64,000 nucleotides of DNA from an uncultured Clostridia bacterium (GTDB lineage: Bacteria; Bacillota; Clostridia; Christensenellales; Borkfalkiaceae): assembly GCA_947589385.1 (NCBI GenBank), contig CANPZW010000005.1, forward strand, positions 51,099-115,098, given 5' to 3'. The notes beneath the pieces are model-generated. The model had not been told where the DNA came from, did no database searches, and saw only the letters and a list, made by a program, of their open reading frames with translations. The translations under genes and the position numbers were made by a program. How positions within the stretch are numbered: position 1 is the stretch's first letter; every line of letters begins with the position of its first letter. Of this stretch, positions 20,988 to 64,000 are shown piece by piece.

Positions 20988-21437
20988 ATGACAGGAAGAA
21001 CCCGTGAAAATTACAACAAGAACTATCTCGAATACGTAAAAACGCAGGACCCGCCCACAAAGCATTTTAAAAACTGTGCTGCGGCGTTCGGCGTAGGCGG
21101 GCTTATATGCTGCATAGGGCAGTTCATCCGCTATATGCTGTCCTATATAGGGCTTACGGGCGACGAGCTTGCCGGGGCGACTTCGGTCGTGCTTATTTTT
21201 CTCGGCTGTCTTTTGACGGGATTGGGCGTCTATGACAGAATAGGCAGATACGCGGGCGCGGGTTCTATCGTGCCTATCACGGGGTTTGCCAACAGCGTTA
21301 CGTCCCCCGCAATCGAGTTCAAAACGGAGGGCTGGATATACGGCATGGCTGCCAAAATGTTCACCGTCGCCGGCGCGATAATAGTATTCGGCGTGTGTTC
21401 GGGCGTTATTGTCGGTCTGATTTATTTGTTTGTATGA
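20988..21437 (+). CDS. spoVAC: Stage V sporulation protein AC
   Basis: NYLEYVKTQDPPTKHFKNCAAAFGVGGLICCIGQ; TM protein followed by spoVAD. Confidence 0.9.
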   Translation: MTGRTRENYNKNYLEYVKTQDPPTKHFKNCAAAFGVGGLICCIGQFIRYMLSYIGLTGDELAGATSVVLIFLGCLLTGLGVYDRIGRYAGAGSIVPITGFANSVTSPAIEFKTEGWIYGMAAKMFTVAGAIIVFGVCSGVIVGLIYLFV

Positions 21438-22072
21438 AAAAGGGCAATACGTTATTTTTTAAAAACGCCCCCGCAATTCTCTCATTTGCCGCCGTGTGCG
21501 GCTCTAAGGAGAAGGAGGGAATAGTCGGTACGTACGCCGATATAACGCTTGAAGACGATATGTACGGCGAAAGCACGTACGAAAAAGCGGAGTGCAAAAT
21601 GCTCTCCACCGCCATATCGCTTGCCATAAAAAAGAGCGGGCTTGAAGAGAATAAGATAGACGTTCTTCTTTCGGGCGATTTGTTGAACCAGATTATTTCG
21701 GCAAGTTTCGCCGCGCGCGACTTCGAATTTCCGTTTTTGGGGCTTTATTCGGCGTGTTCGACGATGAGCGAAAGTATTCTTCTCGGCGCGTCTTTGGTGG
21801 ACGGAGGATATGTAAATACGGCTGTTTGCGCCACGGGCAGCCATTTTGCCTCGGCGGAAAGGCAGTACCGATATCCTTTGGAGCTGGGCTGTACCCGTCC
21901 GCCGCAATCCCAGTGGACTGTTACGGGCGCGGGCGGACTTGTGCTCGGCAAGTCGGATAAAGGAGTTAAAGTCACCTGCGGCACAATGGGCAGAGTCCGC
22001 GACTACGGCGTGACAGACGTAAACAACATGGGCGCCGCAATGGCGCCTGTTAATGCTATTATAGCACCATAA
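21434..22072 (+). pseudogene. spoVAD: 5' fragment of spoVAD, truncated at the left end of the element
   Basis: Strong SpoVAD-like N-terminal part ending ..YGVTDVNNMGAAMAP then unrelated VNAIIAP-stop; full-length SpoVAD is about 340 aa. Confidence 0.85.
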
Positions 22073-22081
22073 CATATGGTG
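22054..22081. repeat. Two adjacent short inverted repeats at the element/spoVAD junction
   Basis: TGCTAT-T-ATAGCA (22054-22066) and CACCAT-AACAT-ATGGTG (22065-22081). Confidence 0.6.
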
Positions 22082-22134
22082 ATAATGATACTTAACACAA
22101 AAATAAAATAAGGAGGTACATAGCCAATGTTATG

Positions 22135-22163
22135 AAAAAACGGCGGATTTCCGCCGTTTTTTT
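22135..22163. terminator. Bidirectional terminator
   Basis: AAAAAACGGCGGA-TT-TCCGCCGTTTTTTT. Confidence 0.75.
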
Positions 22164-24578: not shown

Positions 24579-25484
24579 ATGAAATATCGCGAATGGTTGG
24601 AGCAATGGCTGTTTTTGGTGAAGCCGTCAATCAAGCAATGCACATATGAACGCTATACGTCGGTTGTAAAAATCCACTTGAAACCGAATTTAGGCGAATA
24701 CGACATAGACGACCTTACCGCGCGGCACCTCCAAACGCTGATTGCAAATTTGTCGGGAGCTTATTCGCCCGGCACGATAAACTGCATAGCGTTTGTGGCG
24801 AAGCGTTCGCTGTTGTGCGCGGAAGAATTGGAAGTAAGGCAAACCCGCTTGAATTGCAAAATGCGTTACAGACTGCGCTATAAACGCGATATTAAATGCC
24901 TTACGGTGGCAAACCAAATGAAATTGGAAAAATATGTGAGCAATTCGGAGATTCCCAAACTGTTCGGGATAACCATTTGCTTATACACGGGTTTACGCGT
25001 GGGCGAGCTTTTGGCGTTGAAGTGGAGCGACATAGATTTCAAAAATTCGATAATTTATGTGAACAGCACCTGTCACGACATTTATACCAACGCGGGCTAC
25101 GAAAAGCTTATCGTTGCGCCAAAGACCTTTACTTCCAAACGCGAAATACCGTTGCCGAAACGGATAACCCCCGGCTTGAAAGATTTAAGCAAAGCAAGCA
25201 AAAGCGATTTCGTTATTTCGGGCAAAGATGGACAGGTAGTATCGAAGCGTTCCTATGAAAGCACGTTCGGCAGCGTACTTAAAAAACTGGGATTGCCGCA
25301 TATGGGCTTGCACAGCCTGCGGCATACTTTTGCCACGCGCGCGCTTGAAAGCGGAATGGACGTAAAAACGCTTTCGGAGATTTTGGGACACAAAAACGCG
25401 GCGATTACATTGAATTGCTATGTTCACAGTTTGTCCGAACACAAGCGGGCGATGATGAACAAAGTTGGCAAAAATTTACAGTAA
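24579..25484 (+). CDS. Tyrosine recombinase (phage-integrase family), candidate DNA invertase
   Basis: TGLRVGELLALKWSDID, HSLRHTFATRALESGMDVKTLSEILGHKN, CYVHS (R..HxxR..H..Y); SAM-like N-terminus. Confidence 0.93.
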   Translation: MKYREWLEQWLFLVKPSIKQCTYERYTSVVKIHLKPNLGEYDIDDLTARHLQTLIANLSGAYSPGTINCIAFVAKRSLLCAEELEVRQTRLNCKMRYRLRYKRDIKCLTVANQMKLEKYVSNSEIPKLFGITICLYTGLRVGELLALKWSDIDFKNSIIYVNSTCHDIYTNAGYEKLIVAPKTFTSKREIPLPKRITPGLKDLSKASKSDFVISGKDGQVVSKRSYESTFGSVLKKLGLPHMGLHSLRHTFATRALESGMDVKTLSEILGHKNAAITLNCYVHSLSEHKRAMMNKVGKNLQ

Positions 25485-36737: not shown

Positions 36738-37164
36738 GAAACACAGGCAAGGAATAACATTAAAAAGCCGTACATTAAAGATTTGTCTGAAAAGAAAAGG
36801 CTATGGACAGACGTATTTTGCGGCACGGCTCGGTATGAGCAGGCGGAATTTAATGCGCAAGCTGTATATGCGGCAAACGTTTAATCAGAGGGAAATAACC
36901 GAATTGGTACGGCTATTGGGCGCGCGTATGGCAATCAAAGTAATATGGTTTCCGAGTTTGCGGGAAAAAAGGAAAATACAAAGATATGTGTGGTGGAAAC
37001 AAATGTCTGAAAAGAAAAATTTTAAGGATTTGCAGCAGGACGATTATGTCGGGAACAATAACAAATTGTTTGCGGAGCAAGAACAAGGCGACGAAATTGA
37101 AAAGTTGATATTTACTTGTAAAAAGCTACCGAGCCGTAAATTTATGAGGAGAAGAAATGTATAA
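36691..37164 (+). CDS. Putative HTH DNA-binding protein
   Basis: GYGQTYFAARLGMSRRNLMRKLYMRQTFNQREITELVRLLG. Confidence 0.5.
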   Translation: MALKASTFKSVINFTEKHRQGITLKSRTLKICLKRKGYGQTYFAARLGMSRRNLMRKLYMRQTFNQREITELVRLLGARMAIKVIWFPSLREKRKIQRYVWWKQMSEKKNFKDLQQDDYVGNNNKLFAEQEQGDEIEKLIFTCKKLPSRKFMRRRNV

Positions 37165-40100
37165 CGGTAGATTGACTGAACGCAATGCGGCGATAGCCGA
37201 GATGTTAGCGGACGGGGAAAGACTGAAAAACCTTTATCGATTTACGGCGCAAAATCCTCATATAAATCTTCACGACGCATGTCAGATAGTAATCGAGCGA
37301 CCGAATGTGACGGTATGTTATTCGTTTAACGAATGGTCAGCAATGGAACGGCGTATAACGAAAGGCAGGAAAGGGATTGAATATTACGACAGTGACGGTT
37401 ATAAGCAGTTTGTATTCGACGCCAATGATACGCACGGCGAAAACCGTTATATGCGCCCGATAATAACAATGAGAAGTTTGCTCGGCGGCTTGTCGGAGTT
37501 GAATGGCGTTCCGGATTCAGACTCGGAGCAGAGCGATTACATAAAAATCCGAAACGGCGTTCAAGACTACCTGCGCGAACAAGGTGAGCTAAACGGCGAC
37601 GAAGAACGCGATAAATTGCTTGTCGAGGGTGTGGCATATTCGCTGTACTCAAAAACAGGCTTCCCGAAAAGTGCGGGAATAAAATTGGGCGGGCTACCCT
37701 ATGGCTACCGTGAAAACGCCGATTTTGTAAAAAACGTGTATGTGTGGGCTAATAATCTTGAACAAGACATAGAAGAAGCAAACCGCGAAAAGCAAACCGA
37801 AATAAAAATCATAGACGACACGGACGAAGAAAACGTTTCGGACGAGCCATTATTGCCGACGAAGCAAGTGCGCAAGAAAGTGTTTTCGAGCGCGGTAAAA
37901 ATGTACGCGCAAAACTATGTTATTTTAACAGATAATCAAGCGGATAACGGCGTGGAAACGCATATATACATAGGCAAGCCCGAAAATCTTGACGAAGAGA
38001 CAAACGCTTATGACAATTCGGACGATAGCTTAATTTATGCAACGGACAGACCGCAGATGGCGTATTTATTATACGGTAAGGCATATGCGCAGACACAGCA
38101 AGAACTAATAGATAACGGCACATTTACGAAAGAAGATTATGCGGAATACAACAGATTAAAAGAGGGTGAATTAAAAGAAATCCTCGAAAAGGCAGATTTA
38201 AGATTCGGAATAAAAACGGGCGTTGCGGACAGCGGGTTGCCGTTTAAATATCCCGAATGGGAAATCAGCGAAAAACCTAATGTTGAAGAAGCACCGACAG
38301 TAATACCGCTATATCAGAAATATATCGATTCGCAAAAATTAGAACCTGCGGCGGTAGTTTTAATGCGGCTCGGTGATTTTTACGAGATTATGGGCGAGAA
38401 CGCCGTAAAGGTTTCGGAAGAACTTGACATTACATTGACGGGCAGGGACGTCGGGCTTAAAGAGCGGGTGCCGATGTGCGGTATGCCTTATCATGCAATG
38501 GATAAGTGTTTGGACAAAATACTTGAAAGACACAGCGTATTAATTGTGGACGGTGATGAAGAACCAAAATATATACTATCGCATACGGAAGCGCGCGCAA
38601 AACACGTTGAAAAAGAAGAAAAGAAAAAGCCGGAGCTTGTGGAAATTACGCGTGATGAACCAACGCCGTTTGATAATGAACAGCCTGAAACGGACGAAGA
38701 TTGGCGAACCGAACTTGCCGAGGAGCTTGCCGAGGAGAACGGGCAGCCCGAAGAAGAAATTGCCGAACCCGAAGAAGATGAATCGGAGGAATTGGAGGAG
38801 CCGCCCGGAAGCATAAGCGAACAGCCGAAAGACAAGGTTAAATCCACACCGAAGAAAGAAGAAAAGGGTATAAAAGACCGCAAGCGCAAACCGAAGCCGC
38901 AACTGTCAATGTTCGATATGCTTAAACCGCAAGAAAAATCGGCAGAGGAAGCACTCATTGAACGAGAGTTGAAGCGCGGCGGTAGTCTCAAATTTCGTAT
39001 TTTCGATAAGTACAATAAAAACCCCACGCAAAAAGCGTTTGCCGATTTTATAAAAAACGAATACGGAATAGGCGGATATAGCAGCTGGGAGGGCGATAGT
39101 GCAACGCATGACGCAAAAGGTATTACAATGTCCGTTCGCGGTAAGAACGGTGAATGTCTTGTTACAGCTTCTTTGAAATGGCCCGAAGTTGCAGTGCGAA
39201 TTGCAGACCTTATAGACGACGACAACTATTTTACCGAACAGGAAAAACAAGAATATGTCGAATACAAGATAGAGCAAGACCGCCAAAAAGCTATACAGGC
39301 AGAAAAAGAACGTCAAAAGACCGAACTTATAAACAAAGTAATTTTTTTTGCGCCGCCCGACCGCAAACAGCGTATTTTGGACGAATACGCAACCACAACG
39401 GTGCTTACCGATTTTGCCGAATTTCTTAAAAACGAATACGGAACATTTGAGGAACACGGGGAAGGCTATTCCGCAATATATAACCAACAGGGTATATGGA
39501 TTTACAAAGGTGAAACCTATGACTACCAAAAGGATTTTTATCTCAACTGGACAGAATTTGCGGATAAGACTTGCACACTCATAGAAAACGACAGATATAT
39601 CGAACAGTCAGAGCCGGAAGAACAGCCGCGTGATTTGGATGCAGAGGAAGATGAAGATTGGGATAACCTGATAAGTGCCCATGTATTAAAACCCATAGAG
39701 CCAACGACTGAAAAAGATAAAATCAAGAGTATTGTTGACCGCATTGTAAAAGAGGGAACGGAAAACACAAGCGGCGGAAATTGGATAATTTACCTTGACG
39801 AGTTTGGCGATGACGAAAATTTTGTCAGGGAACACAAAGGGGAAATCGGTGAGATTCTTGCTTTGCGTGAAGAAGTTGCGCGAGTTGCAATGGATGACGA
39901 AAGCATAGACACAAAGTTTCACTTGGAATTTTGCCCGAATATCGAAGAAGAACAGTCAGTTGAGAATACAAATCTGAACGGCGTATTAAACCAAAACGAG
40001 CTTGGCGGAGCAAAGACGAGATTCCGCAATAACGTTGCGGCAATCAAACTTGTAAATAAGCTGTATTCGGAAAACCGTAATCCCACGGATGCAGAGAAGA

Positions 40101-43100
40101 AAGTACTTTCACAGTTTGTGGGTTGGGGCGGATTATCAGCGGCGTTTGACGAAAATAACCCGCAATGGAAAAAGGAATACGCCGAACTGAAAGGAATACT
40201 CTCGCAAGAGGACTATGAACAAGCGCGTTCGAGTACGCTCAACGCATATTACACGCCAAAAGAAGTAATAGACGGCATATATACTGCGCTCGGTCGGTTA
40301 GGCGTAAAAGGCAATAACAGAATTTTAGAGCCGTCAATGGGCACGGGCAATTTCTTTGGATATATGCCGCAAGAGATAGCAGATGGAAGCAGGCTTTACG
40401 GCGTGGAATTGGATAATCTTACGGGCAGGATAGCGGCAAAGTTATATCCGCAAGCGAACGTACAGATAAAAGGTTTCGAGGACACGAGTTTTCCGAACGA
40501 TAAATTTGATATTGTGGTAGGCAACGTGCCGTTTGGCGGTTACGGAATCGCGGACAGCGATTATAACCGTTACAACTTCCGTGTTCACGATTACTTTCTT
40601 GCGAAGTCCATTGACAAGGTAAAGCCTGAGGGAATAGTGGCGATTGTGACGAGCAAAGGCACAATGGACAAGCTCAATCCGAACGCAAGAAAATATGTAG
40701 CGGAACGCGCCGAGCTTTTGGGGGCAATACGGCTTCCGAACACGGCATTTAAGCAAACGGCGGGAACGGAAGCCGTGGCAGATATATTGTTTTTTCGCAA
40801 GCGTAAAGAGAAAATAACGGATTTATCGGGCATAGAATGGCTCGGCACAGGTAAAACGACCGAGGGATTCGAGATAAACAACTATTTTGTGCAACACCCC
40901 GAAATGGTACTCGGCACACTTGCGGAAGAACACGGATTATACGGCGGAATAGACATAACGGTGAAGCCCGACGAACGTGATTTGTCGGAAGCATTAGCCG
41001 AAGCGGTTAAAAATTTACCGCAAGCCATATTTACCGTTCCCGAAAAATCTCCCGAAGCGGAGTCCGCAACGGAAGTGGACTATAACGTAAAACCCATGTG
41101 TTACAAAGCCGAAAACGGCAGACTGTATATGCGCGTGGGTGACGAAATGCAGGAGCAGGCTATCCCGAAATTTCCGAAAGACGCATATCAACGCATAAGA
41201 GGAATGATAGCGTTGCGGGATGAGCTTCATCATATCCTCGATATACAGATACAAGGCTGTTCTGACGAAGTGCTGAATGCTGAACAGCGGAAGCTCAATA
41301 CGCAGTACGATTTATTTGTAAAAAAATACGGCGAGTTAAACAGTCAGACAAATACAAGGCTGTTTGCGGACGACGGTGACAGCGCATTATTATTCGCCTG
41401 CGAAGATATAGATAAGGAAACGCAAAAAATAAGCAAGTCGGATATTTTTTATGAGCGCACAATCCGTCCGTATGCAGTGCCGACAAGTACAGACGATTGC
41501 TTTGAAGCATTGCAGATTTCAAAGAACGAGCGCGGCAAAGTGGATATAGAGTATATCGAGGAGCTTACGGGAAAATCTTATGACGACGTGCTTTCGGAGC
41601 TTGACGGCGCGGTATTCAGAAACCCCGAAAAGGTTTACAGGTCTGATAAGTATTCGGGCTTTGAAACGAGCGAAGAATATCTGTCGGGGAAAGTGGTTGA
41701 AAAACTACGTATAGCGCGAATGTTCGCGGAGGAATTTCCCGAATATGAAAAAAATGTTACGGCATTGGAACGCATGCAACCCACGCCGATAAAGGCGAGC
41801 GATATTTCAGTAAGGCTCGGACAGACCTGGATAGGCAAAGAAATATACAAGCAATTCTATATGGAGCTTGTGGGAGTACGTTGGTGGCAACGTGATGGCG
41901 TTCAACTGTTCTATAATCCGTACGATTCAAGTTGGCGGTTAGACCAAAAGGACAGCGTTCGTTACGATACGGAAATGAAACAAAAAGAGGTTTACGGTAC
42001 GAAACGCGCACCTGCATACAGACTATTTATAGACTGTATGAACTTAAAGGCGACGACGATTTACGATACCGTAATAGACCCGGACGGAACGGAAAGGCGG
42101 GTACTTAACCAAGCAGAAACAATAGCGGCGCGTGAAAAACAAAACCAAATCAAGGAAGCGTTTGCAAACTGGATATTTGCAAAGCCCGAACGCCGTGAAG
42201 AGTTGGAAGCAAAGTATAACCGTCTTTTCAACCAAATAAGATTGCCGAGCTATGACGGAAGTTATTTAAAATTTCCCGAAATGAATCCCGCGATAGAATT
42301 GCGCCCACATCAGAAAGACGCGATTCATCGCATAATAACAAACGGACAAAGCACATTATTGCATCATGTAGTAGGGAGCGGCAAGACATATACAGTGGCG
42401 GCTTCAATAATGAAAATGCGGCAGCTTGGGTTATGCAAGAAAGCAATGGTAGCAGTGCCAAACCATCTTGTACAGCAGTGGGCGGGGGAATGGCGCAAGT
42501 TATATCCCAACGCAAAAATTCTTGTTGCCACAAAAGAGGATTTGGAAAAGAGCAACCGGCGTAAATTCGTATCAAAGGTTGCGCTTGGCGATTGGGACGG
42601 AATAATAATCGCACAATCGAGTTTTGCGAAAATCCCCATATCGGCGGAGCGGCAAATAAGAAAACTGAACGAAGAAATAAATACCGTAGAGCAAACAATT
42701 AAAGCGACGTGGGAAAGAAACGGTATGCCGCGCGGAGCGGTCAAAAGTTTGGAAAAAATCAAAAAGACCAAACAAGCCCAACTTAAAAAGCTGATGGACA
42801 ATAATACCAAAGACAGCGTATTGACCTTTGAAAACCTCGGCGTGGATTATCTATACATAGACGAAGCTCATTATTATAAAAATTTGTTCTTATTCACAAA
42901 AATGAACAACGTAGCGGGCATATCGAACGCAGCAAGCCAAAGAGCAAGCGATTTGAAATTGAAATGTGAATACATGCAAGGATTGCACCAGAGCGACAGA
43001 GGCGTTGTGTTTGCAACGGGAACGCCTATAAGCAATTCAATGACAGAAATGTACACTATGCAATCTTACTTACAGCCGAGTATGTTAAAGGACATAGGCA

Positions 43101-46100
43101 TAGAGTTTTTCGATGGTTGGGCAGCGGATTTCGGTGAAACAGTAACGAGTATGGAGCTTGCGCCGAGCGGTCAGGGATATAAGGCGCGGACGAGGTTTTC
43201 CAAGTTCGCGAATTTACCCGAATTACAGATATTATACCGTTCTTTTGCGGACGTAATCACTTCGGATATGGTACAGCTTGACGTTCCCAAAGCGGAAAAA
43301 CATGTAATAAATCTTAAACCGTCTGATACGGTAGTTGCGCTTGCGGAGCAAATTGCCGAGCGCGCGGAAAGGATACATGCCGGCGGAGTTCCGCCCGAAG
43401 AAGATAATATGCTGAAAGTAACTTCGGACGGTAAGAAACTTGCGCTCGACCCGCGCTGTTTTGTTCCCGAATCGGCTGACGAGGAGGGCAGTAAACTTAA
43501 TGAGGCGGCAAAACGCATTTATGAGATTTGGGAAAACACGGCAGACAAAAAAGGTACGCAGATAGTATTCTGCGATTTATCCACGCCGAAAGTCAAATCA
43601 GACGAGTATATTTACGGATTACATTTCGACGCATATAACGACCTTAAATACAAACTTGTGCAAAAGGGTATTCCGGCAGAAGAAATAGCGTTTATACATG
43701 ACGCTAATACCGACGAGCAGAAGCAAACGCTGTTCGACAGGGTAAATGCCGGGGCAATCAGAGTACTTATCGGCAGCACGGAAAAGTGCGGCGCGGGAAC
43801 TAACGTGCAAAAACGTCTTGTGGCGTTACACCATTTGGATACGCCTTACAGACCAAGCGATATGGAACAGCGCGAGGGCAGAATAATAAGACAAGGCAAT
43901 ACCAATGAAAAGGTTGATATTTACACCTATGTTACCGAGCGCACATTTGACAGTTATTCCTATCAGATACTTGAAAACAAGAGCCGTTTTATACAGCAAA
44001 TAGCAAGGGGCGATTTTACGGCGCGGGAATATGAGGATATGGACGAAACGACTTTAAGCTATGCCGAAATAAAGGCGATTACAGCGGCAAATCCGAAAAT
44101 CAAGCGCAAAATGGAAGTGGATACCGAAATAGCAAGATTGCGCGTGTTGGAAGGGCAGTTTAAAAAGAACCTTTATGAGTTACAGGATAAGATACGCAAA
44201 TATTTACCCGAAGATATACGCAAGCAAGAATTATTGCTCGAAAGAATAACGGCGGATATGGTAAATTTACAAGCAAATAAACCCGCCGACCCCGAAGCGT
44301 TTGAAATAAGTGTAAACGGAAAAGTTTACACAGATAAAAAAGAGGGCGGAAAAGCTCTCACGGAAGCACTGTATGCCGGTAAACCCGAAACGGTAATTGC
44401 CGAATATCTCGGTTTTAAAATCAGTTTGAATCATATAATTTTTCTTAAAAGCGAAAGAGAAATAACGCTTACCGCTAACGGACAATATACGTTAGACATA
44501 GGCGAAAGCGCAAGCGGTAATCTTACGAGGTTGGATAACTTTATCGAAGATTTCCCGAAGCGACAAGAGCGTGTCGCAAATAGGTTGGAGCAATTAAAAT
44601 CCGATTTGGAAGTAGCGAAAGAACAAGCAGAAAAAAAGTTTGAATACAATGACCGGCTTGCCGAGCTTTTAAAAGAGCAGTCGGAATTGAACACTGAACT
44701 TAATCTTGATAAGCGTGAAGAAAGCGTAGTGATTGACGACGGGGAAGGGTCAGACGAGGGTAATTACAGAATGTTGCCCACACAAAGACAAAACATGGAG
44801 GAAAAGATTATAGACGAAACAGATAAGGTAGCTGAAATGCAGGTTGATATTTTGCCGGACTACACGGTAACGCAAGAACAGATGCGCAGGTACGGATATT
44901 TATGGAACGGAATGCTGCCCATGCGCAAAGACGCGGCAAGCCGTGCATTTAGCAGAGGAGTACAGATATATAGGCTTTCCGACGACGATAAGGAACGTGA
45001 AGTAGAGTCGGCGGACGATTTCGAGGACGGAGCGTTATACGGCGTTGAAAAACCCGTATGGAAAATATATTTGGAATCGGAACACGGCAAAGCGTATATG
45101 GCGGCGCGTTCACAGATTGCAGAAGCGTCGGGCGTGGTTACTTCGGGTGAAATGGATATAGTTGCCGAACAGCTAACGGGTGATTTCATACAAAAAAATT
45201 ACGAAGAACGCACCGATTTGGACGATTATCTTTCGGACAAGCCAACGCCGAGCGCAGAAGCAATGAAAGAATACGCCGAAGAATTGTTGTCGGAATACAC
45301 CGAGCGGATTTGGAGCGACGGGCTTAAAGAGTATGGTTGGGACAAAAACGCCGTAAGGCGTTCAATTATAGACCATATCGAAAACGCAGATTTAAAAGCG
45401 GCGGTGCAGGAAATACCCGAAACGGATAACGTCAATTATGAAGTTGAGGTTATAAACAGCGTTGTGGCTGAGTTTGACGAGTTTAAAACCAAAATGCTTC
45501 AAAGCTCTACCGAAGAAGTATTCTTGAACAACTATAAAATTCACCTGTTTAACGAGTTTTCGGAAGTTATACAGTACGGCAAGGAATATTTGACGGATAA
45601 AGAATTTAAAGCGTTATACGAGGATAGAGGACATATTCTTAACAGCCTTTACGACGATTACTGTGGTTCGGAAAATTACAGCGTGGAAACATATGTTGAT
45701 ACTGCGGCATTTATCAAGGACTACTGCGAGGCGTACCATAACGAGATTTACTACCCAATAACCTACTACGGCAAGGATACCGAGGGCAGGGCATATTACA
45801 GTATGACGAGAGGAATATCATTTGAAAATCTTAAATGGTTTGATGAAAATGCAGATACCGATATGATAACCGTTGCCGCGCCGGAGTGTTATGTAAGTCA
45901 GGAGGAGCTTGAAAAGCACCATATTTTCTACTTGCAAATAGGTAAGGATATACAAGAGAAAGAAACAGTAGGCGAGAAAGCAATAAGCAACATGATGGCG
46001 GCTATGGACAGATTTAAACGCATAGAGCCTGTGTACTTGCAGACTGCTACATATGCAAACGAACATGCCGAAATGATTGCATACCGTGAATCGCACAAAT

Positions 46101-48805
46101 TAAACGAGGAGTGCAGACAAGCGATAGATGAGGCAATCCAAAAGAATTTTAATGATAATCACCTTGATATGGGCTTCGTGGACGGCGTTATAGAAAAATA
46201 CGGTATGGAGCGTGTGACGTTGGTGTTTGCAACCACAATCAACGAACATGAATGGGACGGAAGATATAAAAGCGAAAACAAAGATTGGGCAAAAACCATA
46301 CCTATGTCCGAGAGCGATAAAGAACGCAATAACTGTTGTTTGAACGCGCACCCCGCGCTAATTGACGGAGTAGCGGACAAAATCAGGGAACGGCAGGTAA
46401 TTTTATACACAATAGTAACCGAGAAAAACGCTGACGGATTACCTTGTTTTAACGCGTATTATTTGGACAGGCAAAATGGTGAAGTTAAGTATTTAGACGG
46501 GAATTTCAGTTCAAATATCGCCTTACAGGCGGTTATAGACCAAAATGCAGACATCGGTCATAAAGGCTATGAGTATAAGCTAATTGATTCGCAGGAATTT
46601 TACGCTATGAGTGAAAAACTTAAAGCGGCTTTTGCGGCAAAAAACAAAACAATAGAAGAAAATCAAAATAAGGAGGAAAATTCAGAAGTGGCACAGGACA
46701 AATTTAAACACTTTACCGCAAGGGGCGATAAAGTGTTAAGCATAATAAAAGACCGCGACGACAGAAATATAGCCATTATTCAAAGAGAGAAAATAGGCGA
46801 TTATGTGGTTGCGGCGGGATATACCACGACGGACGGAAAGTGGGCGCAGGGAAAATACGATTTCAAAACGCTCGAAGCCGCCGAAAAGTACAGGGAAGAA
46901 AAATACGGCTATGAGAACACGACGGACACAATCCAAAAGGAATGGCTTACTTTTAAAGTCAGCCCCGAAGCACTCATCAAAAAGTATTCCGTCAATTCAC
47001 GGTTTATGATGCCGAAAGGTAGCGGCTACGAGGGATATGCTTACAGCATTTTCAATGACCGCATTAAAGAGGGAACAATTACCACGGATTTAAAAAGCGA
47101 CACCCGTGAGCGGGCGTTGGTAATTCAAATTCCCAATAATAAGAATATCGAGATAAGCGGTAAAGGTGAAACAATAGAGATAGAGCCGCACGAGTTTATC
47201 AGCTTAGTAAACAAAACAAGGGCGGACAAATACGAGCGTGAGCTGAGATATGTGGTAAACTTCCCGCCCGAAGCATTTGTCAAAGAATACGAAACATCTA
47301 TGCTTTTGGCAATGCCCAACGATACTAAATACAAAGGGTATGTGTATTATCTTCCCACGTCGGTTATTACGGAGGACATAGCCAAGGATGACGGAACGTT
47401 AAATGCCCATATTGGCGAGAGTTTCAAAGTAACCTTACGCAAAGGCGAGGAGCGCGTGGAGCTTACTGCAAAAGAGTATGTTGACCTTGTGGGCGGTAAA
47501 AAAGCGGACAAGTATGTTAAGGATATGTCCGAGATGGACGAGTACCGCGAACAGCAAGGCGAAAACGATAAAAAATGGAGTACGGTTGCGGTAAACGAAA
47601 ACGCCGTAATTGCCAACTATAAGGAAAGCACGCTATTAAAAATGCCGAAAGGAGAGTATGCGGGATTTGTATATTACATACCGAGCGGTATGGTCAACAA
47701 AACCGCCGAGGAACTTTATCTGCGTATTCCCGAAGATTTCACCGCACATCTCAAAAACGGCGACGAACAAAAAGACCTTACAGCGCAGGAGCTTATAGCG
47801 GCGATAGGTGGTAAAACGTCGGAGGACTATGAAGGCATTTACCGTAAGCCGAGCGAAGAAGCTATTAAACAGTTTGAAAAAACCGAGGAGCAGCTTCGCA
47901 AAAACGTTCCGCCCGAAATGCTCAATAAACCCAACTGGGTGGTCGTCAGAACGCGCGAGAATAACGAAACGGGCAGATTAGATAAATTCCTTATCAGTCC
48001 GCATACGGGGAAGTTTGCCGAAAGCGATAATCCCGAAACATGGTCGGATTTCGATACGGCTTGTAAATATGCCAAAGAAAACGGCGGAGTTTGCCTTGCT
48101 TATGCCCTTGATGGAAAAGACGGGATAGCCTGCATTGACCTTGACGGTTGCATAAACGAGAACGGCGAATTTTCGGAGATTGCGCAAAAAACGGTGGAAG
48201 CCGCCAATGGCAGTTACACGGAAAAATCGGTAAGCGGGAAAGGTCTGCATATTTTCGGGAAAACGAAAGGCGCAAACCTCCGCTCATTCAGTAAAGATAA
48301 GTCAATGGAATACTATCAGTCCACGCACTTTATCGCGATGACGGGCAACAACAACGAAAGCTCGGAGTTAAAGAGCTTCGATACGCCCGAAATGAGAGCA
48401 GTGCTTGAAAGCAAGCTTGAAAAGCGCACCGAATGGAAGAATACCGGCAAAGGCATTGAGGGATTATCTTCAATGGACGACAGGGAAGTACTTGATAAGG
48501 CGTTCGGCGCAAAAAACGGCGATACCGTAAAAAGGCTTTATAAAGGCGAGGATTTGCGCGGCAACCACAGCAATTCGGATATGTTGCTTATGAATTACCT
48601 TGCATTTTGGAGTAACCACGACATTGACCAAATGTTGCGGATATTTTCTTCGAGTGGATTATACCGCCCCGATAAACCGCAAAGCTATTACGAATACACG
48701 GCAATAAAAGCCATAAAGGGAACGCCTTGTTACACGCCGAACCAAAAAAGCAGTAGCAAGTCGAGTAGCGGTAGCGGAAACGATAGCGGCAAGGGCGGCA
48801 AGTGA
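37157..48805 (+). CDS. 3882-aa ICE megaprotein: MutS domain I-like + N6-adenine methylase-like + SNF2/DEAH helicase + tandem repeats + AEP primase-like C-terminus
   Basis: FYEIMGENAVKVSEELDITLTGR..PMCGMPYHAM; ILEPSMGTGNFFG..VVGNVPFGGYG; HHVVGSGKTYT; YIDEAHYYKN; EQREGRIIRQGN; CIDLDGCI..SGKGLHIFG. Confidence 0.85.
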   Translation: MYNGRLTERNAAIAEMLADGERLKNLYRFTAQNPHINLHDACQIVIERPNVTVCYSFNEWSAMERRITKGRKGIEYYDSDGYKQFVFDANDTHGENRYMRPIITMRSLLGGLSELNGVPDSDSEQSDYIKIRNGVQDYLREQGELNGDEERDKLLVEGVAYSLYSKTGFPKSAGIKLGGLPYGYRENADFVKNVYVWANNLEQDIEEANREKQTEIKIIDDTDEENVSDEPLLPTKQVRKKVFSSAVKMYAQNYVILTDNQADNGVETHIYIGKPENLDEETNAYDNSDDSLIYATDRPQMAYLLYGKAYAQTQQELIDNGTFTKEDYAEYNRLKEGELKEILEKADLRFGIKTGVADSGLPFKYPEWEISEKPNVEEAPTVIPLYQKYIDSQKLEPAAVVLMRLGDFYEIMGENAVKVSEELDITLTGRDVGLKERVPMCGMPYHAMDKCLDKILERHSVLIVDGDEEPKYILSHTEARAKHVEKEEKKKPELVEITRDEPTPFDNEQPETDEDWRTELAEELAEENGQPEEEIAEPEEDESEELEEPPGSISEQPKDKVKSTPKKEEKGIKDRKRKPKPQLSMFDMLKPQEKSAEEALIERELKRGGSLKFRIFDKYNKNPTQKAFADFIKNEYGIGGYSSWEGDSATHDAKGITMSVRGKNGECLVTASLKWPEVAVRIADLIDDDNYFTEQEKQEYVEYKIEQDRQKAIQAEKERQKTELINKVIFFAPPDRKQRILDEYATTTVLTDFAEFLKNEYGTFEEHGEGYSAIYNQQGIWIYKGETYDYQKDFYLNWTEFADKTCTLIENDRYIEQSEPEEQPRDLDAEEDEDWDNLISAHVLKPIEPTTEKDKIKSIVDRIVKEGTENTSGGNWIIYLDEFGDDENFVREHKGEIGEILALREEVARVAMDDESIDTKFHLEFCPNIEEEQSVENTNLNGVLNQNELGGAKTRFRNNVAAIKLVNKLYSENRNPTDAEKKVLSQFVGWGGLSAAFDENNPQWKKEYAELKGILSQEDYEQARSSTLNAYYTPKEVIDGIYTALGRLGVKGNNRILEPSMGTGNFFGYMPQEIADGSRLYGVELDNLTGRIAAKLYPQANVQIKGFEDTSFPNDKFDIVVGNVPFGGYGIADSDYNRYNFRVHDYFLAKSIDKVKPEGIVAIVTSKGTMDKLNPNARKYVAERAELLGAIRLPNTAFKQTAGTEAVADILFFRKRKEKITDLSGIEWLGTGKTTEGFEINNYFVQHPEMVLGTLAEEHGLYGGIDITVKPDERDLSEALAEAVKNLPQAIFTVPEKSPEAESATEVDYNVKPMCYKAENGRLYMRVGDEMQEQAIPKFPKDAYQRIRGMIALRDELHHILDIQIQGCSDEVLNAEQRKLNTQYDLFVKKYGELNSQTNTRLFADDGDSALLFACEDIDKETQKISKSDIFYERTIRPYAVPTSTDDCFEALQISKNERGKVDIEYIEELTGKSYDDVLSELDGAVFRNPEKVYRSDKYSGFETSEEYLSGKVVEKLRIARMFAEEFPEYEKNVTALERMQPTPIKASDISVRLGQTWIGKEIYKQFYMELVGVRWWQRDGVQLFYNPYDSSWRLDQKDSVRYDTEMKQKEVYGTKRAPAYRLFIDCMNLKATTIYDTVIDPDGTERRVLNQAETIAAREKQNQIKEAFANWIFAKPERREELEAKYNRLFNQIRLPSYDGSYLKFPEMNPAIELRPHQKDAIHRIITNGQSTLLHHVVGSGKTYTVAASIMKMRQLGLCKKAMVAVPNHLVQQWAGEWRKLYPNAKILVATKEDLEKSNRRKFVSKVALGDWDGIIIAQSSFAKIPISAERQIRKLNEEINTVEQTIKATWERNGMPRGAVKSLEKIKKTKQAQLKKLMDNNTKDSVLTFENLGVDYLYIDEAHYYKNLFLFTKMNNVAGISNAASQRASDLKLKCEYMQGLHQSDRGVVFATGTPISNSMTEMYTMQSYLQPSMLKDIGIEFFDGWAADFGETVTSMELAPSGQGYKARTRFSKFANLPELQILYRSFADVITSDMVQLDVPKAEKHVINLKPSDTVVALAEQIAERAERIHAGGVPPEEDNMLKVTSDGKKLALDPRCFVPESADEEGSKLNEAAKRIYEIWENTADKKGTQIVFCDLSTPKVKSDEYIYGLHFDAYNDLKYKLVQKGIPAEEIAFIHDANTDEQKQTLFDRVNAGAIRVLIGSTEKCGAGTNVQKRLVALHHLDTPYRPSDMEQREGRIIRQGNTNEKVDIYTYVTERTFDSYSYQILENKSRFIQQIARGDFTAREYEDMDETTLSYAEIKAITAANPKIKRKMEVDTEIARLRVLEGQFKKNLYELQDKIRKYLPEDIRKQELLLERITADMVNLQANKPADPEAFEISVNGKVYTDKKEGGKALTEALYAGKPETVIAEYLGFKISLNHIIFLKSEREITLTANGQYTLDIGESASGNLTRLDNFIEDFPKRQERVANRLEQLKSDLEVAKEQAEKKFEYNDRLAELLKEQSELNTELNLDKREESVVIDDGEGSDEGNYRMLPTQRQNMEEKIIDETDKVAEMQVDILPDYTVTQEQMRRYGYLWNGMLPMRKDAASRAFSRGVQIYRLSDDDKEREVESADDFEDGALYGVEKPVWKIYLESEHGKAYMAARSQIAEASGVVTSGEMDIVAEQLTGDFIQKNYEERTDLDDYLSDKPTPSAEAMKEYAEELLSEYTERIWSDGLKEYGWDKNAVRRSIIDHIENADLKAAVQEIPETDNVNYEVEVINSVVAEFDEFKTKMLQSSTEEVFLNNYKIHLFNEFSEVIQYGKEYLTDKEFKALYEDRGHILNSLYDDYCGSENYSVETYVDTAAFIKDYCEAYHNEIYYPITYYGKDTEGRAYYSMTRGISFENLKWFDENADTDMITVAAPECYVSQEELEKHHIFYLQIGKDIQEKETVGEKAISNMMAAMDRFKRIEPVYLQTATYANEHAEMIAYRESHKLNEECRQAIDEAIQKNFNDNHLDMGFVDGVIEKYGMERVTLVFATTINEHEWDGRYKSENKDWAKTIPMSESDKERNNCCLNAHPALIDGVADKIRERQVILYTIVTEKNADGLPCFNAYYLDRQNGEVKYLDGNFSSNIALQAVIDQNADIGHKGYEYKLIDSQEFYAMSEKLKAAFAAKNKTIEENQNKEENSEVAQDKFKHFTARGDKVLSIIKDRDDRNIAIIQREKIGDYVVAAGYTTTDGKWAQGKYDFKTLEAAEKYREEKYGYENTTDTIQKEWLTFKVSPEALIKKYSVNSRFMMPKGSGYEGYAYSIFNDRIKEGTITTDLKSDTRERALVIQIPNNKNIEISGKGETIEIEPHEFISLVNKTRADKYERELRYVVNFPPEAFVKEYETSMLLAMPNDTKYKGYVYYLPTSVITEDIAKDDGTLNAHIGESFKVTLRKGEERVELTAKEYVDLVGGKKADKYVKDMSEMDEYREQQGENDKKWSTVAVNENAVIANYKESTLLKMPKGEYAGFVYYIPSGMVNKTAEELYLRIPEDFTAHLKNGDEQKDLTAQELIAAIGGKTSEDYEGIYRKPSEEAIKQFEKTEEQLRKNVPPEMLNKPNWVVVRTRENNETGRLDKFLISPHTGKFAESDNPETWSDFDTACKYAKENGGVCLAYALDGKDGIACIDLDGCINENGEFSEIAQKTVEAANGSYTEKSVSGKGLHIFGKTKGANLRSFSKDKSMEYYQSTHFIAMTGNNNESSELKSFDTPEMRAVLESKLEKRTEWKNTGKGIEGLSSMDDREVLDKAFGAKNGDTVKRLYKGEDLRGNHSNSDMLLMNYLAFWSNHDIDQMLRIFSSSGLYRPDKPQSYYEYTAIKAIKGTPCYTPNQKSSSKSSSGSGNDSGKGGK

Positions 48806-53950: not shown

Positions 53951-55249
53951 ATAAACAATCAACCGGTTGTTTTCAATATTCAATATACGCCTTACAAATT
54001 GCCGAAAGGCGCAAGCGCAGAGGAAATAGCAAAACACGCGGACGAAAGGGCGTTTTTCGATATGACCGGTTCAAAAAATATTTTCGATTATATTACGACG
54101 GAGGGCAAGCGTACGGGCAAGCGCACCGCGCTCGAATACTTGCAGAAAAATACAGGGTTGTTTAATGACAAGGGAATCATCTCCAAACAGCAAGTAAAAG
54201 AAATGCAAGCGCGGGCAAAGGCGAATAAAGGTCATATTTTTCACGGCTTTATATCAATTAACGAGGAACAATCATACAAGATTGATACGCCCGAAAAATG
54301 TATCGAATTATTAAAGCGCACTTTCCCGCAATTTCTCGCGGATGCCAAATTTCATAAGAACAATGTTGATTTAATGTGCGCATTGCATAAGGACAGACCG
54401 CACCATTTACATATTCACTTCGTGTTTTGGGAAAAAGAGCCGAAGTATAAAGGCAAGGATAAAAAACCGCATTACCGTCGTTACGGCAAGATAGACAAAA
54501 AAAGCATAGATAATATGTTTGTACGGCTCGGCTTGTATTTAAGCGAAAAAAAAGACAGAGTATATAAAAGCCGCGATAAAGCGATTTTGGAGTTGCGAGG
54601 GCTGTTGGGCGCGCGCGCAGTAATGTACGGCGACAAACAAATCAAGAAAGAAATTTTATCGCTGACGAAAGATTTGCCGAAAACAGGACGTATTACTTAC
54701 GGCAGCAAAGATATGGAAAGTTTCAGACCTCGGATAGACCGTATTGTACAGTTGTTGCTCGGCTCGGATTCAAAAGCAATGAAAGCAAACAGACGGTTTT
54801 ACGAAGCGGTGGCAGAGCGGGAACGCGATATAAAAAATATTTGCGGTGCGCCGACTGCTTTCTCAAATAAAAATGTTAAACCACAAAAAATGGAAAGCGA
54901 TTTGCCGAAATACCATAACGAAATAGACGAGAACAATATTCACGTTATCGAGGATTTAAAAGCAGACTACCAACGCCGGCAGGGGAATCTTGTATTAAAT
55001 TTATGCAAGTTCATAAAACCCGAATATTTTGAAAGGGAAAGGAAATACAACGCCAACGATATAAGACTGAAACGCTTGCTCGGAATTACCCGCAGGAAAA
55101 TAGACGTCGCGTTTAAAAAGTTTATAAAAACGTTCGGTTCGGATAGCGAATTATTGGAGCGCGACTTTACGCGCCGTTTACAGGAAATCGAAGAAGAAAT
55201 GGCGCAAGAAAATGAGAAAAACAATAAAGGAGGAGACTACAAAAATTGA
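53951..55249 (+). CDS. MobL/MobP-like relaxase
   Basis: DRPHHLHIHFVFW histidine motif, LFNDKGIISKQQVKEMQARAKANKGHIFHGFIS; frame opens before the annotated TTG 53999. Confidence 0.75.
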   Translation: MNNQPVVFNIQYTPYKLPKGASAEEIAKHADERAFFDMTGSKNIFDYITTEGKRTGKRTALEYLQKNTGLFNDKGIISKQQVKEMQARAKANKGHIFHGFISINEEQSYKIDTPEKCIELLKRTFPQFLADAKFHKNNVDLMCALHKDRPHHLHIHFVFWEKEPKYKGKDKKPHYRRYGKIDKKSIDNMFVRLGLYLSEKKDRVYKSRDKAILELRGLLGARAVMYGDKQIKKEILSLTKDLPKTGRITYGSKDMESFRPRIDRIVQLLLGSDSKAMKANRRFYEAVAERERDIKNICGAPTAFSNKNVKPQKMESDLPKYHNEIDENNIHVIEDLKADYQRRQGNLVLNLCKFIKPEYFERERKYNANDIRLKRLLGITRRKIDVAFKKFIKTFGSDSELLERDFTRRLQEIEEEMAQENEKNNKGGDYKN

Positions 55250-57478
55250 ATGGACAGAAAAGAAGCATTCAAACATAAAAAAACCAAAGTCCATAGGGCA
55301 GGAATATATATCGGGCTGTTTGTGTTTGTAACGGTAAGCGTATTGATAGCATTTATTTTCTCGCTGTTCGGCGCGGACTTCGGCGGCATATTCGGCAACA
55401 AGAATTATTGGTTGACGGTAGGCGTAGTAAACGGGCTTATGCTTATAGGCTATCTGCTTATGTATCGCATAGATGCGCAGAACATTGCAATGAAAGAAAA
55501 CGATTTAGAGGACACCGAGTGGATGACTACCAAAAAGCTCAAAAAAATGAAAGAGTTTACGGTAACGACATGGGACAATATGCCAAACCGCGACGACGAA
55601 ATAGTAATCGGCGCGGAAGAAAAGAAGAAAGGCGTGGAAATCATATCCACGAGCCAACTTCACGCGCTTATAGTTGGCACGACGGGCAGCGGCAAGACGA
55701 CGGGATTCGTTGACCAAAATATAGCTATTCTCGGCAGGAGCAAGGGCAAGCCCGCGATAATCGTAGCAGACCCGAAAAAAGAGCTTTACGAAAAACACTC
55801 AAAACAGCTTGAAAACGAGGGCTATAAAATTTCCGTGCTTGATTTGCGTGAGCCGTATTCTTCGGCGCGTTGGAATCCTATGCAAACACTTATACGCAGG
55901 ATACGGCAAGTAAAGGAATTACAGACGAATTTAAAATGTCAAGACGGAAAATATTATGCTTGCGGCGAAACATTTTTATCTTACGACGAAGCGCGGTTGC
56001 GGGTGCAGGAACTGAAAGACGAGATTTTCGAGAACGCAATGGATTTGGTTTATACGCTGTGTCCTATACAGAACAAAGACCAGCCCACATGGGAGGAGGG
56101 CGCAAGGAATCTTATATTCGGGCTTGTGCTTGCATTTTGCGAGGACGTAATAAAAGGGAAAATGGACGAAAAGCAATTACAGCTTTTCAACGTTTACCAC
56201 AATATCACGAAGTACTGTTCCGAGGATACGACGGCACTAAAAAATTATCTTATGGATGGGCGGGACGAGTTTTCCAAAGTGCGCGGGCTTGTAAATACCG
56301 TGCTAATAACTTCGGACAAGACCTTAACGAGCTATCTTTCGGAAGTAAATGCGTATATACAACAGTTGTCGGACGACGGGATATTGTCTATGACGAGCGA
56401 GAACGATATAGATATAGTCAACCTCGACGAACAGCCGAGCGCAATATTTATAATTGTGCCAGACGAACGTGTAACGCGGCATAGGTTTGTGACACTGTTT
56501 ATAACACAGCTTTATAAAGAGCTTGTAGAAAAGGCTAATATCAATCTGCGGCGGAAAGAAACCGAAACCGCGATTCTCAAACGTAGAGCATATTTCGTTC
56601 TCGATGAGTTCGGTAATTTGCCGAAGTTTGAAAATATCGAAGGTATGGTAACGGTAGGGCGTTCAAGAGGAATAAGATACCTATTCGTATTGCAGAGCTT
56701 TTCACAGCTTACGGCAAAGTACGGCAGGGACATAGGCGATATTATCAAGACAAACTGCAATGTCAAGATATTCATAGGCTCGGACGACCCCGAAACGCGC
56801 AAAGAGTTTTCGGAGCTTTGCGGACAGAAAAAAGTAAAAAACTTTTCGGTGAATACCAATGCGGAAAACCCCGCTTCGAGCAATACGGGCGCAAGCAATC
56901 AGCCGCTCATCACGGTGGGAATGCTCGAACGCTTGAACGGCGACGAAAAGGGCGACGCTATTGTTTCGGTGAGAGGATACGAGCCTATTTGGACGAAATT
57001 CACGCCGTCATACGAACTGAAAGACGTGTATTTCGCGGCGGGCAAAGCCGATACAGAAAAGCACAAAGCAAGGCTGTTTGAGAAACGCAATTATGTCTTT
57101 GATATTCTCGGCGGCAGTCAGACCCGTGAAGAAGATAGAAAACTTGACGGGATAGAAAAGCGTGAACAGGAACAAGCCGAAGCCGAAAAGCGGCAAGCTG
57201 TTAATATTGCCGATTTGGATAAGCAATGGAACGCCAAAGTCAAGGAAATCCACGACAAGATATTCCGGGTTGCCGAAACGCTTTCGGAAGAAGACGCGGC
57301 GGCGTTGATTCATGCGAAGCTCGAAGATAAAATCTTGCTTATCAGGTTTTTTATAGACGGCTACGATATTACAATACAACAAAAATTAAGGGCTTTGGTG
57401 AAGTACTTGGAAGAAGAATTGTTAAAGCTCTTGAAATTACAGGAACAAGTAAAAAATAAACAAAAGGAGATAGAATGA
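55250..57478 (+). CDS. VirD4/TraG-type coupling ATPase (T4CP)
   Basis: LIVGTTGSGKTTGFVDQN, AYFVLDEFGNLPKFENIEGMVTVGRSRGIRYLFVLQS. Confidence 0.92.
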   Translation: MDRKEAFKHKKTKVHRAGIYIGLFVFVTVSVLIAFIFSLFGADFGGIFGNKNYWLTVGVVNGLMLIGYLLMYRIDAQNIAMKENDLEDTEWMTTKKLKKMKEFTVTTWDNMPNRDDEIVIGAEEKKKGVEIISTSQLHALIVGTTGSGKTTGFVDQNIAILGRSKGKPAIIVADPKKELYEKHSKQLENEGYKISVLDLREPYSSARWNPMQTLIRRIRQVKELQTNLKCQDGKYYACGETFLSYDEARLRVQELKDEIFENAMDLVYTLCPIQNKDQPTWEEGARNLIFGLVLAFCEDVIKGKMDEKQLQLFNVYHNITKYCSEDTTALKNYLMDGRDEFSKVRGLVNTVLITSDKTLTSYLSEVNAYIQQLSDDGILSMTSENDIDIVNLDEQPSAIFIIVPDERVTRHRFVTLFITQLYKELVEKANINLRRKETETAILKRRAYFVLDEFGNLPKFENIEGMVTVGRSRGIRYLFVLQSFSQLTAKYGRDIGDIIKTNCNVKIFIGSDDPETRKEFSELCGQKKVKNFSVNTNAENPASSNTGASNQPLITVGMLERLNGDEKGDAIVSVRGYEPIWTKFTPSYELKDVYFAAGKADTEKHKARLFEKRNYVFDILGGSQTREEDRKLDGIEKREQEQAEAEKRQAVNIADLDKQWNAKVKEIHDKIFRVAETLSEEDAAALIHAKLEDKILLIRFFIDGYDITIQQKLRALVKYLEEELLKLLKLQEQVKNKQKEIE

Positions 57479-62396: not shown

Positions 62397-64000
62397 TTGA
62401 GAATAATACCTAAAAAAGTAAAGGTCAAAAATACGGTATGGAAATGCTATTCAATGATAGACGTGATAGTCGCCCTTGTCGTATTCGCAATAATATTCAT
62501 AGCGGTAACGGCGGGCAGTTGGGCTATGGCAATCATTATGGGCTTGATAGCGGTGGTAATGTTTATGCCAACGCCGGACGGAATCTTATATACTTGTATT
62601 TTTGACAACATAAAATTTCTGTTTGCGAAAAAGAAATACGCGGCGCAGGATACAAATCCCAAAAGCAATATAAGCGCGCTGACGGAGTTAAAGGAAATAA
62701 AGGCTAACGGAATACTTGTCTATAACGGCGGAATGTACGGCCGCGTTATAAAGATAGGGCAAAAGAACTTCGGTATAGAAGACGTGGCGGAGCAGAATAC
62801 GGATATAAATTATTTTGCCAACGCATTGAAATGCCTCGACCAAAACCAAAGCGCGGACATAGTAAAAATAGACCGCCCCGTAAATTTGGACGGATATTCG
62901 GAAGAACTGTTCAAAAGGCTGTCCGCAGTCAAGGACGGCGGCGAGGAATCGGCAATAAAGGAAATAAAGACGGGAATATTAAGGGAACGCATAGACCGTA
63001 TAGATAAACTAAACAATATCCGCAAGCAGTACATATCGGACTACTATATAGCGGTTTACGGCAGGAACGAGCTTGACCTCGAAAATACCGCCGTAAATGT
63101 TGCCGCGGAAATATCGAAGTGCGGATTGAGTACGAAGATACTCGGAATGCGTGAATCGGCGGTATTCTTGAAATACAGCTATTCGCGCAACTTCGACGAA
63201 AGAGAGATAAAGGATATTCCCGACGACGGGCTTGTCGAATGGATAAAGCCGAAAGAGGTTGTATTCCACGCCAATAAATATGAGATAGACGGAACGGAAG
63301 CCGCGGTGTTTGCCGTGACGGATTACCCCCTGCGCGTGAAGAACGCGTGGGGAGCGGAGCTTTTCAATATCCCGAACACAAAGGTGGTTATGCACGTCAA
63401 GCCCGTGGATAAATTCAAGGCGATAAAGAGAATAGACAAGTGCATAGGCGAAATGACTACCAAGCAGCTGATGAGCGATAAGCCGAGCGAAGCTAACAGC
63501 GCGGAAACGCACCGCGAAACGATGGACGAGCTTTTAAACGCTTTGCAGACGGAGAACGAAAGCCTTTTGGACGTTACGCTTACGGTTACGGCATATAACT
63601 ACAAAAAGGAAGATACCTATAAAAAGACAGTGCGGCGCGCTATGCTGACGGGGAATTTCAGACCGTCCACGCTGTACGGCTTGCAAATAAACGCTTTCAA
63701 AACTGCGGATATTTGCCCGTCGGATTGCCTTAATAATTTTGTTCACGGCATTAACAGTACTTCGCTTGCGGCGGCGTTCCCGTTTGTAAGAACGTTCGTT
63801 ATGGACGACGGCGGAATACTTCTCGGAGTGAACAAGACAAACGGTTATCCGTTCATTTTCAATCTTTGGAAGCGCGGGAACCTGTATCAGAACAGCAACG
63901 CAATGGTAATAGGCAAATCGGGGAGCGGCAAATCGTTCTTTTTGAAAAACCTTATTCTTAACGAGTGGGCGAACGGCACGAGGATAGTGGTACTCGACCC
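62397..64000 (+). CDS. VirB4/TraE-like T4SS ATPase with N-terminal TM (partial, runs off window)
   Basis: TTG start after AAAGGAGTG; frame open to window end; N-terminal TM pair then Walker A AMVIGKSGSGKSFFLKNLILNEWANGTRIVVLDP. Confidence 0.85.
   Translation, partial: MRIIPKKVKVKNTVWKCYSMIDVIVALVVFAIIFIAVTAGSWAMAIIMGLIAVVMFMPTPDGILYTCIFDNIKFLFAKKKYAAQDTNPKSNISALTELKEIKANGILVYNGGMYGRVIKIGQKNFGIEDVAEQNTDINYFANALKCLDQNQSADIVKIDRPVNLDGYSEELFKRLSAVKDGGEESAIKEIKTGILRERIDRIDKLNNIRKQYISDYYIAVYGRNELDLENTAVNVAAEISKCGLSTKILGMRESAVFLKYSYSRNFDEREIKDIPDDGLVEWIKPKEVVFHANKYEIDGTEAAVFAVTDYPLRVKNAWGAELFNIPNTKVVMHVKPVDKFKAIKRIDKCIGEMTTKQLMSDKPSEANSAETHRETMDELLNALQTENESLLDVTLTVTAYNYKKEDTYKKTVRRAMLTGNFRPSTLYGLQINAFKTADICPSDCLNNFVHGINSTSLAAAFPFVRTFVMDDGGILLGVNKTNGYPFIFNLWKRGNLYQNSNAMVIGKSGSGKSFFLKNLILNEWANGTRIVVLD

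Follow-up and report, generated by a model that had tools for sequence, protein, structure and literature searches.

When a mobile element lies inside a gene for spore maturation, one has to ask whether its host has lost that gene for good or regains it each time the element leaves. The question is raised by the genome of an uncultured Clostridia bacterium (G000), of which a stretch of 64,000 nucleotides, here called the window, was read in a first-pass annotation as holding an ICE within spoVAD, an insertion that might be excised in connection with sporulation or might simply sterilise it. The sections below describe the two halves of the gene and the element between them, then how often and for how long such insertions have occurred, and finally what the ends of the element may do once they are joined in a circle.

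The Two Halves of spoVAD

On the plus strand of the window, the spoVA operon comprises spoVAC (20988-21437; TIGR02838, 172.6 bits, above the cut-off), the upstream gene, followed by the 5' half of spoVAD, which can be read up to the shared core (21434-22049). As the first-pass annotation had it, the ORF at 21434-22072 (plus strand) runs normally from MKKGNTLFF to NMGAAMAP and then turns into VNAIIAP and a stop, everything past 22049 to the stop at 22072 being element sequence; the same ORF (C5:72547-73164 in contig numbering) is matched by positions 3-208 of the NCBIfam SpoVAD profile (TIGR02845). Because the contig stops at 64,000, the right end of the element was invisible at that stage, and it was proposed to look beyond it for the rest of spoVAD and spoVAE next to a short direct repeat. 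Both were found on a second contig of this genome, C15, where the remainder of spoVAD (C15:24724-25107, minus strand; TIGR02845 positions 200-327, beginning AAADTLMRHF) is preceded by element DNA and followed by spoVAE (TIGR02839, 122.5 bits, slightly below the cut-off) and yunB (PF09560 match). The repeat is CCTG (22046-22049, plus strand, at attL), the sole sequence that a comparison of the junctions showed to be common to attL and attR.

The left junction passes from GCAATGGCGCCTG into TTAATGC, and the right junction from CATTTACCCCTG into CGGCTGCGG. Rejoined at CCTG, the halves are in frame and give NMGAAMAP-AAADTLMRHF (ATG GCG CCT GCG GCT GCG GAC, M A P A A A D), the frame that spoVAD would regain if the element were excised precisely. 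An intact copy elsewhere could have undone this reading; a TIGR02845 profile search of the whole genome, which is 97.65% complete, returned these two matches and no third, so no intact spoVAD was found.

The Inserted Element and Its Recombinase

The element measures at least 46.8 kb, of which the left 41.95 kb lie in the window (22046-64000, plus strand) and 4.86 kb on C15, its middle being missing and the contigs C5 and C15 not physically joined. That it is an ICE is supported by a MobL-type relaxase (53999-55249; PF18555), a VirD4/TraG coupling protein (55250-57478; PF02534, PF12696) and a VirB4-like ATPase (62397-63998; PF19044), all on the plus strand, the last assigned by a weak, partial match that is truncated at the contig end. 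Within the ICE, a single ORF of 3882 aa (37157-48805) is without annotation.

At the other end, all on the minus strand of C15, a large serine recombinase (LSR; C15:27169-28902), with Resolvase, Recombinase and zinc-ribbon domains, is accompanied by DUF6870 (C15:28959-29240), which is conserved beside the LSR, and lies about 2 kb from attR (about C15:25103). Its 577 aa fit the domain set and length (about 550-580 aa) of the TndX/TnpX type, and it shares 34% identity with TndX over 88% of the query. Judged by these matches, the element is an ICE with a TndX-like LSR at its attR end. The sequences of its two ends are arranged about the core as an imperfect palindrome, TTATGGTGTAATATTGACATT-TACCCCTGTT-AATGCTATTATAGCACCATAA, as expected for the attP of a serine integrase.

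Between LSR and attR lies a HipBA pair (C15:25198-26576, minus strand; L003:10199-11577), possibly an addiction module that stabilises the element, and the C15 part also holds what is left of a second recombinase, a degenerate C-terminal fragment (L003:11663-12043). In four other loci (L217, L118, L120 and L171), two different LSRs stand in tandem beside attR, an arrangement reminiscent of CcrA/CcrB.

Recurrence at the Same Codon

In a survey of 201 sampled genomes of the family, spoVAD is split at the same codon in at least three genera. The attR pattern matches 14 of 94 congeners (a reversed control pattern matched 0), and all 14 run on from it into an intact 126-codon 3' half of spoVAD. Complete elements with both junctions on a single contig are present in G144 (26.9 kb), G154 (25.2 kb) and G189 (13.4 kb); in these three the cargo includes polysaccharide-biosynthesis operons, the attR end holds an LSR together with either DUF6870 or a small ORF like it, and no transfer genes were found. 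The cargo differs from element to element, ICE genes in one case and polysaccharide operons in another. Outside this set, about 30 of 80 LSR relatives, in named genomes of rabbit, ruminant and other gut Clostridia, adjoin a split spoVAD, and the cut codon is identical wherever these can be aligned; L221, from IMG/VR, is one further LSR beside a split spoVAD. L140 (6.5 kb) and L127 (11.8 kb) are likewise complete elements, and L146 appears decayed. Breaks in spoVAD that coincide with a contig end and lie elsewhere than at this codon (G058, G064, G086, G101 and G198) were left uncounted.

Several loci depart from the simple arrangement. At L115:1697-3942, an intact spoVAD comes immediately after a truncated LSR of 400 aa, an arrangement that looks like a remnant or a rearranged case, and in G239:C7 (L101) and G040:C29 (L071) further genes, rather than attR, come after the LSR, which suggests tandem or composite islands at the site. 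About 230 bp past the LSR match in L109 and L110, where the LSR is not at spoVAD, TTGACA and TAAAAT-like hexamers are separated by a spacer of 9 to 11 G that differs between the loci and could be a slipped-strand variable promoter. The idea that a glmS carried by the elements is an essential single copy was dropped, a second, chromosomal glmS being present in carriers except G246, where only one was found; in those of the three complete elements in which glmS was found, it adds a paralogue to the chromosomal gene.

Selection on the Split Gene

The insertion is found in every member of the clade G208,(G154,(G223,(G189,G246))), and the divergence of the LSR was compared with that of host genes in the four members with a verified LSR near attR (G154, G189, G223 and G246). 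Among these four, dS is 0.62-1.31 for the LSR, 0.40-1.05 for the C-terminal half of spoVAD and 0.45-1.66 for spoVAE, and omega over the same pairs is 0.03-0.056 for the C-terminal half and 0.043 for the N half (G154/G189); NG86 values of dS close to 1 are rough estimates, the contrast being nonetheless large. Since the LSR has a dS near that of spoVAD and spoVAE and diverges in the same order (G189/G246 closest, G154 most distant), the pattern looks like vertical inheritance of the element. Across all carriers, omega for the 3' half has a median of 0.065, as against 0.091 in intact congeners.

A gene broken for so long should decay, yet this one is kept, from which it would follow that spoVAD is regularly functional and that precise excision must, on these substitution patterns, recur in carriers, whatever its timing. 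The strong purifying selection on both halves argues against permanent sterilisation by the insertion, the outcome that the first-pass annotation had left as its other possibility. Independent evidence that loss of SpoVAD costs the host comes from G162, whose element has a complete spoVAD of its own next to attR on the inner side (G162:C14:4840-6348; L217), with the target MAPA recoded to MSPS (NNLGAAMSPS). A related second spoVAD, truncated at its N-terminus, lies at a contig end in G157:C77 (L080).

A Putative Promoter Split between the Element Ends

The arms next to the core contain the two parts of a putative promoter. The attL arm holds a -10 hexamer, TATTAT (22057-22062, plus strand; TAnnnT in 13 of 14 distinct attL), and attR a -35 hexamer, TTGACA (C15:25108-25113, minus strand; TTGACA in 39 of 41 attR), and these are brought together only in the circle, with 17 bp between them once the core is rejoined (18 bp in genus g3). 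The attP reconstructed for G189 and G154 reads TTGACA-17-TATAAT, and among the junctions read, no integrated one has both hexamers. A -35 and a -10 are thus supplied by opposite ends at about 17 bp, the arrangement that defines a circle-junction promoter of the Tn4451 type, and excision appears to build a predicted promoter at attP that integration splits.

The two arms share the dyad TGTyA...ACCATA, at which the LSR probably binds, and differ where the promoter hexamers require it. As TTGACA and TAnnnT overlap these likely binding arms, their conservation may in part serve protein binding. The attP pattern of an assembled circle was matched in none of 399 family genomes and in no viral contigs.

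A Predicted Circle RNA and the Leader of the Recombinase mRNA

Downstream of the -10, sequence comparison and the folds of 13 leaders predict a circle-specific small RNA of about 95 nt (22068-22163, plus strand), made of a stem (CAUAACAU/AUGUUAUG), a loop of about 40 nt and an intrinsic terminator. The same layout is kept elsewhere, with a stem of variable sequence and an A-rich centre in the loop of about 40 nt, followed in most elements by a GC-rich terminator hairpin; fold and terminator are kept despite differing stem sequences, stem pairing having been assessed sequence by sequence in the 13 leaders rather than by a pooled covariation statistic. No Rfam family matched the leader at attL above its gathering score, and sub-threshold matches were weak. 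Beside spoVAD in G157, L054:1347-1420 (minus strand) gave a sub-threshold match to the Rfam Gut-1 RNA (42.4 bits, gathering score 50, E=2e-5).

Two segments of the RNA appear to face the mRNA of the LSR. Segment 1, AUGAUACUUAACACA (22085-22099, plus strand), has a 15-nt complement in the LSR 5'UTR on C15 (shuffle p=0.0025), at or near the predicted start of that UTR (AUGAUACUUAACACA/UGUGUUAAGUGUCAU), and segment 2, AAGGAGGUACAU (22111-22122, plus strand), is in part complementary to the arm masking the Shine-Dalgarno (SD) site of the LSR. Cognate pairs of other sequence are found in G189 (CACUUUAACGCAA/UUGCGUUAAAGUG), G162 (GAAUUUUUUAUAGCA/UGCUAUAGAAAAUUC) and L136 (GGCGGCUGCUU/AGGCAGCCGCC). 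Helices of 11-15 nt, differing in sequence between elements, have p<=0.015 in G000, G189, G154, G223, G040, G162 and L136, a complementarity that was spotted by eye before mononucleotide shuffles were applied and that includes several related elements. It is weak in G144 and L127 and is not seen in either L133 or L140, the former having its LSR genes directly after attL, as in Tn4451. The second loop segment tracks the UTR in several elements (GGACGG/CCGUCC, GGACGA/UCGUCC, GCGGAC/GUCCGC and GGGGGUG/CACCCCC).

The predicted folds of the LSR UTR mostly hide the SD site, and its predicted accessibility rises in 8 of 8 cases when the paired segments are blocked, from 0.00 to 0.42 in G000 and from 0.00 to 0.85 in G162, so that activation of LSR translation is the likelier sign of the effect. 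In G000, the RNA and the UTR lie on different contigs, and their pairing supports the view that C5 and C15 belong to one element.

Proposed Mechanism

The account that we consider probable as a whole is that of a reversible ICE inserted by its LSR, with a promoter split at attP, a circle RNA that raises LSR translation and a spoVAD kept by selection. The TndX-like LSR would insert the element at a fixed spoVAD codon serving as attB, and recombination at the CCTG core would be precisely reversible, bringing spoVAD back in frame. The ends of the element would form attP, with the -35 in the right-end arm and the -10 in the left-end arm, so that integration would part the hexamers and excision would join them at 17 bp. 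We infer that the circle then transcribes the stem-loop and terminator RNA of about 95 nt, which would base-pair with the LSR mRNA at its 5' end and also with the arm masking its ribosome-binding site. The circular state should thereby raise translation of the recombinase and favour re-integration, and selection would keep spoVAD because carriers regularly excise the element.

An extension of this account, which we put forward tentatively and rate at somewhat under an even chance, is a switch that senses the state of the element: integration would silence the RNA, excision would rebuild both spoVAD and the promoter, and the RNA would open the LSR ribosome-binding site, whereupon the element would re-integrate, for instance after germination as sigma-A returns.

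Timing of Excision and Alternative Explanations

When excision takes place is the point on which other explanations have most to say. The skin-like programme that the first-pass annotation raised as a possibility, in which a sporulation signal triggers the LSR and spoVAD is rebuilt in the sporulating cell, agrees with the interruption of a sporulation gene at a precise in-frame site, with the purifying selection on both halves in carriers and with a host that keeps sigE, sigF, sigG, sigK, spoIIGA, spoIIAA/AB, spoIVA and yunB (sigE and sigK match above the NCBIfam cut-offs, and the best matches to sigG and sigF are below theirs). We nevertheless find it rather doubtful, since the LSR promoter looks sigma-A-like by eye (TTGATT or TTGCAA, about 17 bp, TAnAAT), the sequenced part of the element (about half of the interior being missing) yielded no excision factor under a sporulation promoter, and one lineage met the problem with a replacement spoVAD. 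Moreover, Bacillus expresses its spoVA operon in the forespore, whereas skin, SPbeta, gin and yin interrupt mother-cell genes, so a terminal, skin-like excision in the mother cell would restore SpoVAD in the wrong cell, and the spore would inherit an excision made in the forespore. The latter would cost the element its place in the germ line if no re-integration followed, a step that the circle RNA could serve. Neither SASP (PF00269) nor GPR (TIGR01441) was matched in the tested members of the genus (G000, G144, G154, G189, G007 and G116), carriers and non-carriers alike, so this is nothing specific to the insertion. A turnover of populations without any timing, in which carriers fail to finish spores, only chance losers of the element sporulate, which keeps spoVAD intact, and the element re-invades by transfer, has a better claim, although we hold it to be somewhat less probable than not. 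It agrees with the patchy distribution (14 of 94 congeners), the conjugation genes and the replacement spoVAD of G162; the end of G036:C23 and the start of G036:C18 also stop exactly at the att core without element DNA, as would happen in a sample that contains both the integrated and the excised form. Against it stand the co-divergence of LSR and host genes in the G154/G189/G223/G246 clade, which speaks for long residence rather than frequent re-invasion, and the lack of transfer genes in the three complete polysaccharide-carrying elements read.

The remaining alternatives concern the parts of the proposed mechanism rather than its timing. The promoter and the RNA might be by-products of recombinase-binding sites with no regulatory role, as the shared dyad and the probable binding of the LSR there would allow; this is improbable in our view, for the arms differ exactly at the promoter hexamers, with a spacing of 17 (18) bp, and the terminator hairpin lies at a fixed distance, with a loop complementary to the cognate LSR 5'UTR. 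Much less probable still is that the element is moved by the tyrosine recombinase which it also encodes (24579-25484, plus strand; PF00589), 2.5 kb from attL, with the LSR as cargo: the same ends recur in complete elements that have the LSR as the recombinase beside attR, and a 4-bp core with palindromic arms fits serine integrases, so the tyrosine enzyme is not the best candidate for these ends. An assembly chimera, to which the first-pass annotation had pointed as a danger and which the split over two contigs in this MAG might suggest, is excluded in practice, given the same junction in many independent assemblies, three of them congeners with complete elements and both ends on one contig, and the cognate RNA/UTR pairing that ties the two G000 contigs.

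Relation to Known Systems

The reversible, LSR-inserted element proposed here comes closest to the intervening elements of sporulation genes, of which skin in sigK, SPbeta in spsM, gin in gerE and yin in yabG are known (PMC5025042, PMC4191935, PMC5595907, PMC10747680). As in these, a serine-recombinase element lies inside a sporulation gene, both halves of which are present, with a short core, its own recombinase at one end and a frame that precise excision would restore. It differs from them in its spoVAD target, its spread over many genera, a cargo of ICE or polysaccharide genes rather than a prophage-like one, and the predicted split promoter and circle RNA; its excision is, moreover, a prediction from sequence. 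An excision factor under a sporulation sigma factor has been shown for the skin of C. difficile (PMC5025042), with a candidate in yin (PMC10747680).

Its LSR shares a recombinase superfamily with Tn4451/Tn4453 (TnpX) and Tn5397 (TndX). Unlike these three, the spoVAD elements have a single-codon target, and their circle promoter would mostly lead to a terminated RNA, not straight into the recombinase gene (L133 excepted). A promoter for tnpX is reported to arise at the circle junction of Tn4451 (Lyras and Rood 2000, cited in PMC13023037). In ICEclc and ICEKp1, the int promoter precedes new sequence only when the element is excised (PMC13023037); those elements move an intact promoter, whereas in the spoVAD element the cut at attP passes through the promoter itself, which is predicted to drive an RNA that acts on the mRNA of the recombinase. 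Mobile spoVA genes are known as cargo in spoVA2mob (PMC6907783), and the element of G162 likewise carries spoVAD, but there the extra copy adjoins the attR of the very element that broke the host copy and is without the target codons. No report of elements inside spoVAD was found in the literature searched, most subscription papers being outside its scope, so that priority is uncertain.

Significance

The spread of gut Clostridia from host to host depends largely on spores. If mobile elements settle time and again in a spore-maturation gene and must leave it cleanly before it can work, then horizontal transfer, surface polysaccharides and host-to-host transmission would be tied together, and a recombinase under the control of an RNA that only the excised form makes would represent an economical kind of regulation. 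The conserved att sites offer a directly testable integration system for bacteria with few genetic tools. Should the state-sensing switch prove true, a spore-essential gene would be a reversible parking site across gut Clostridia.
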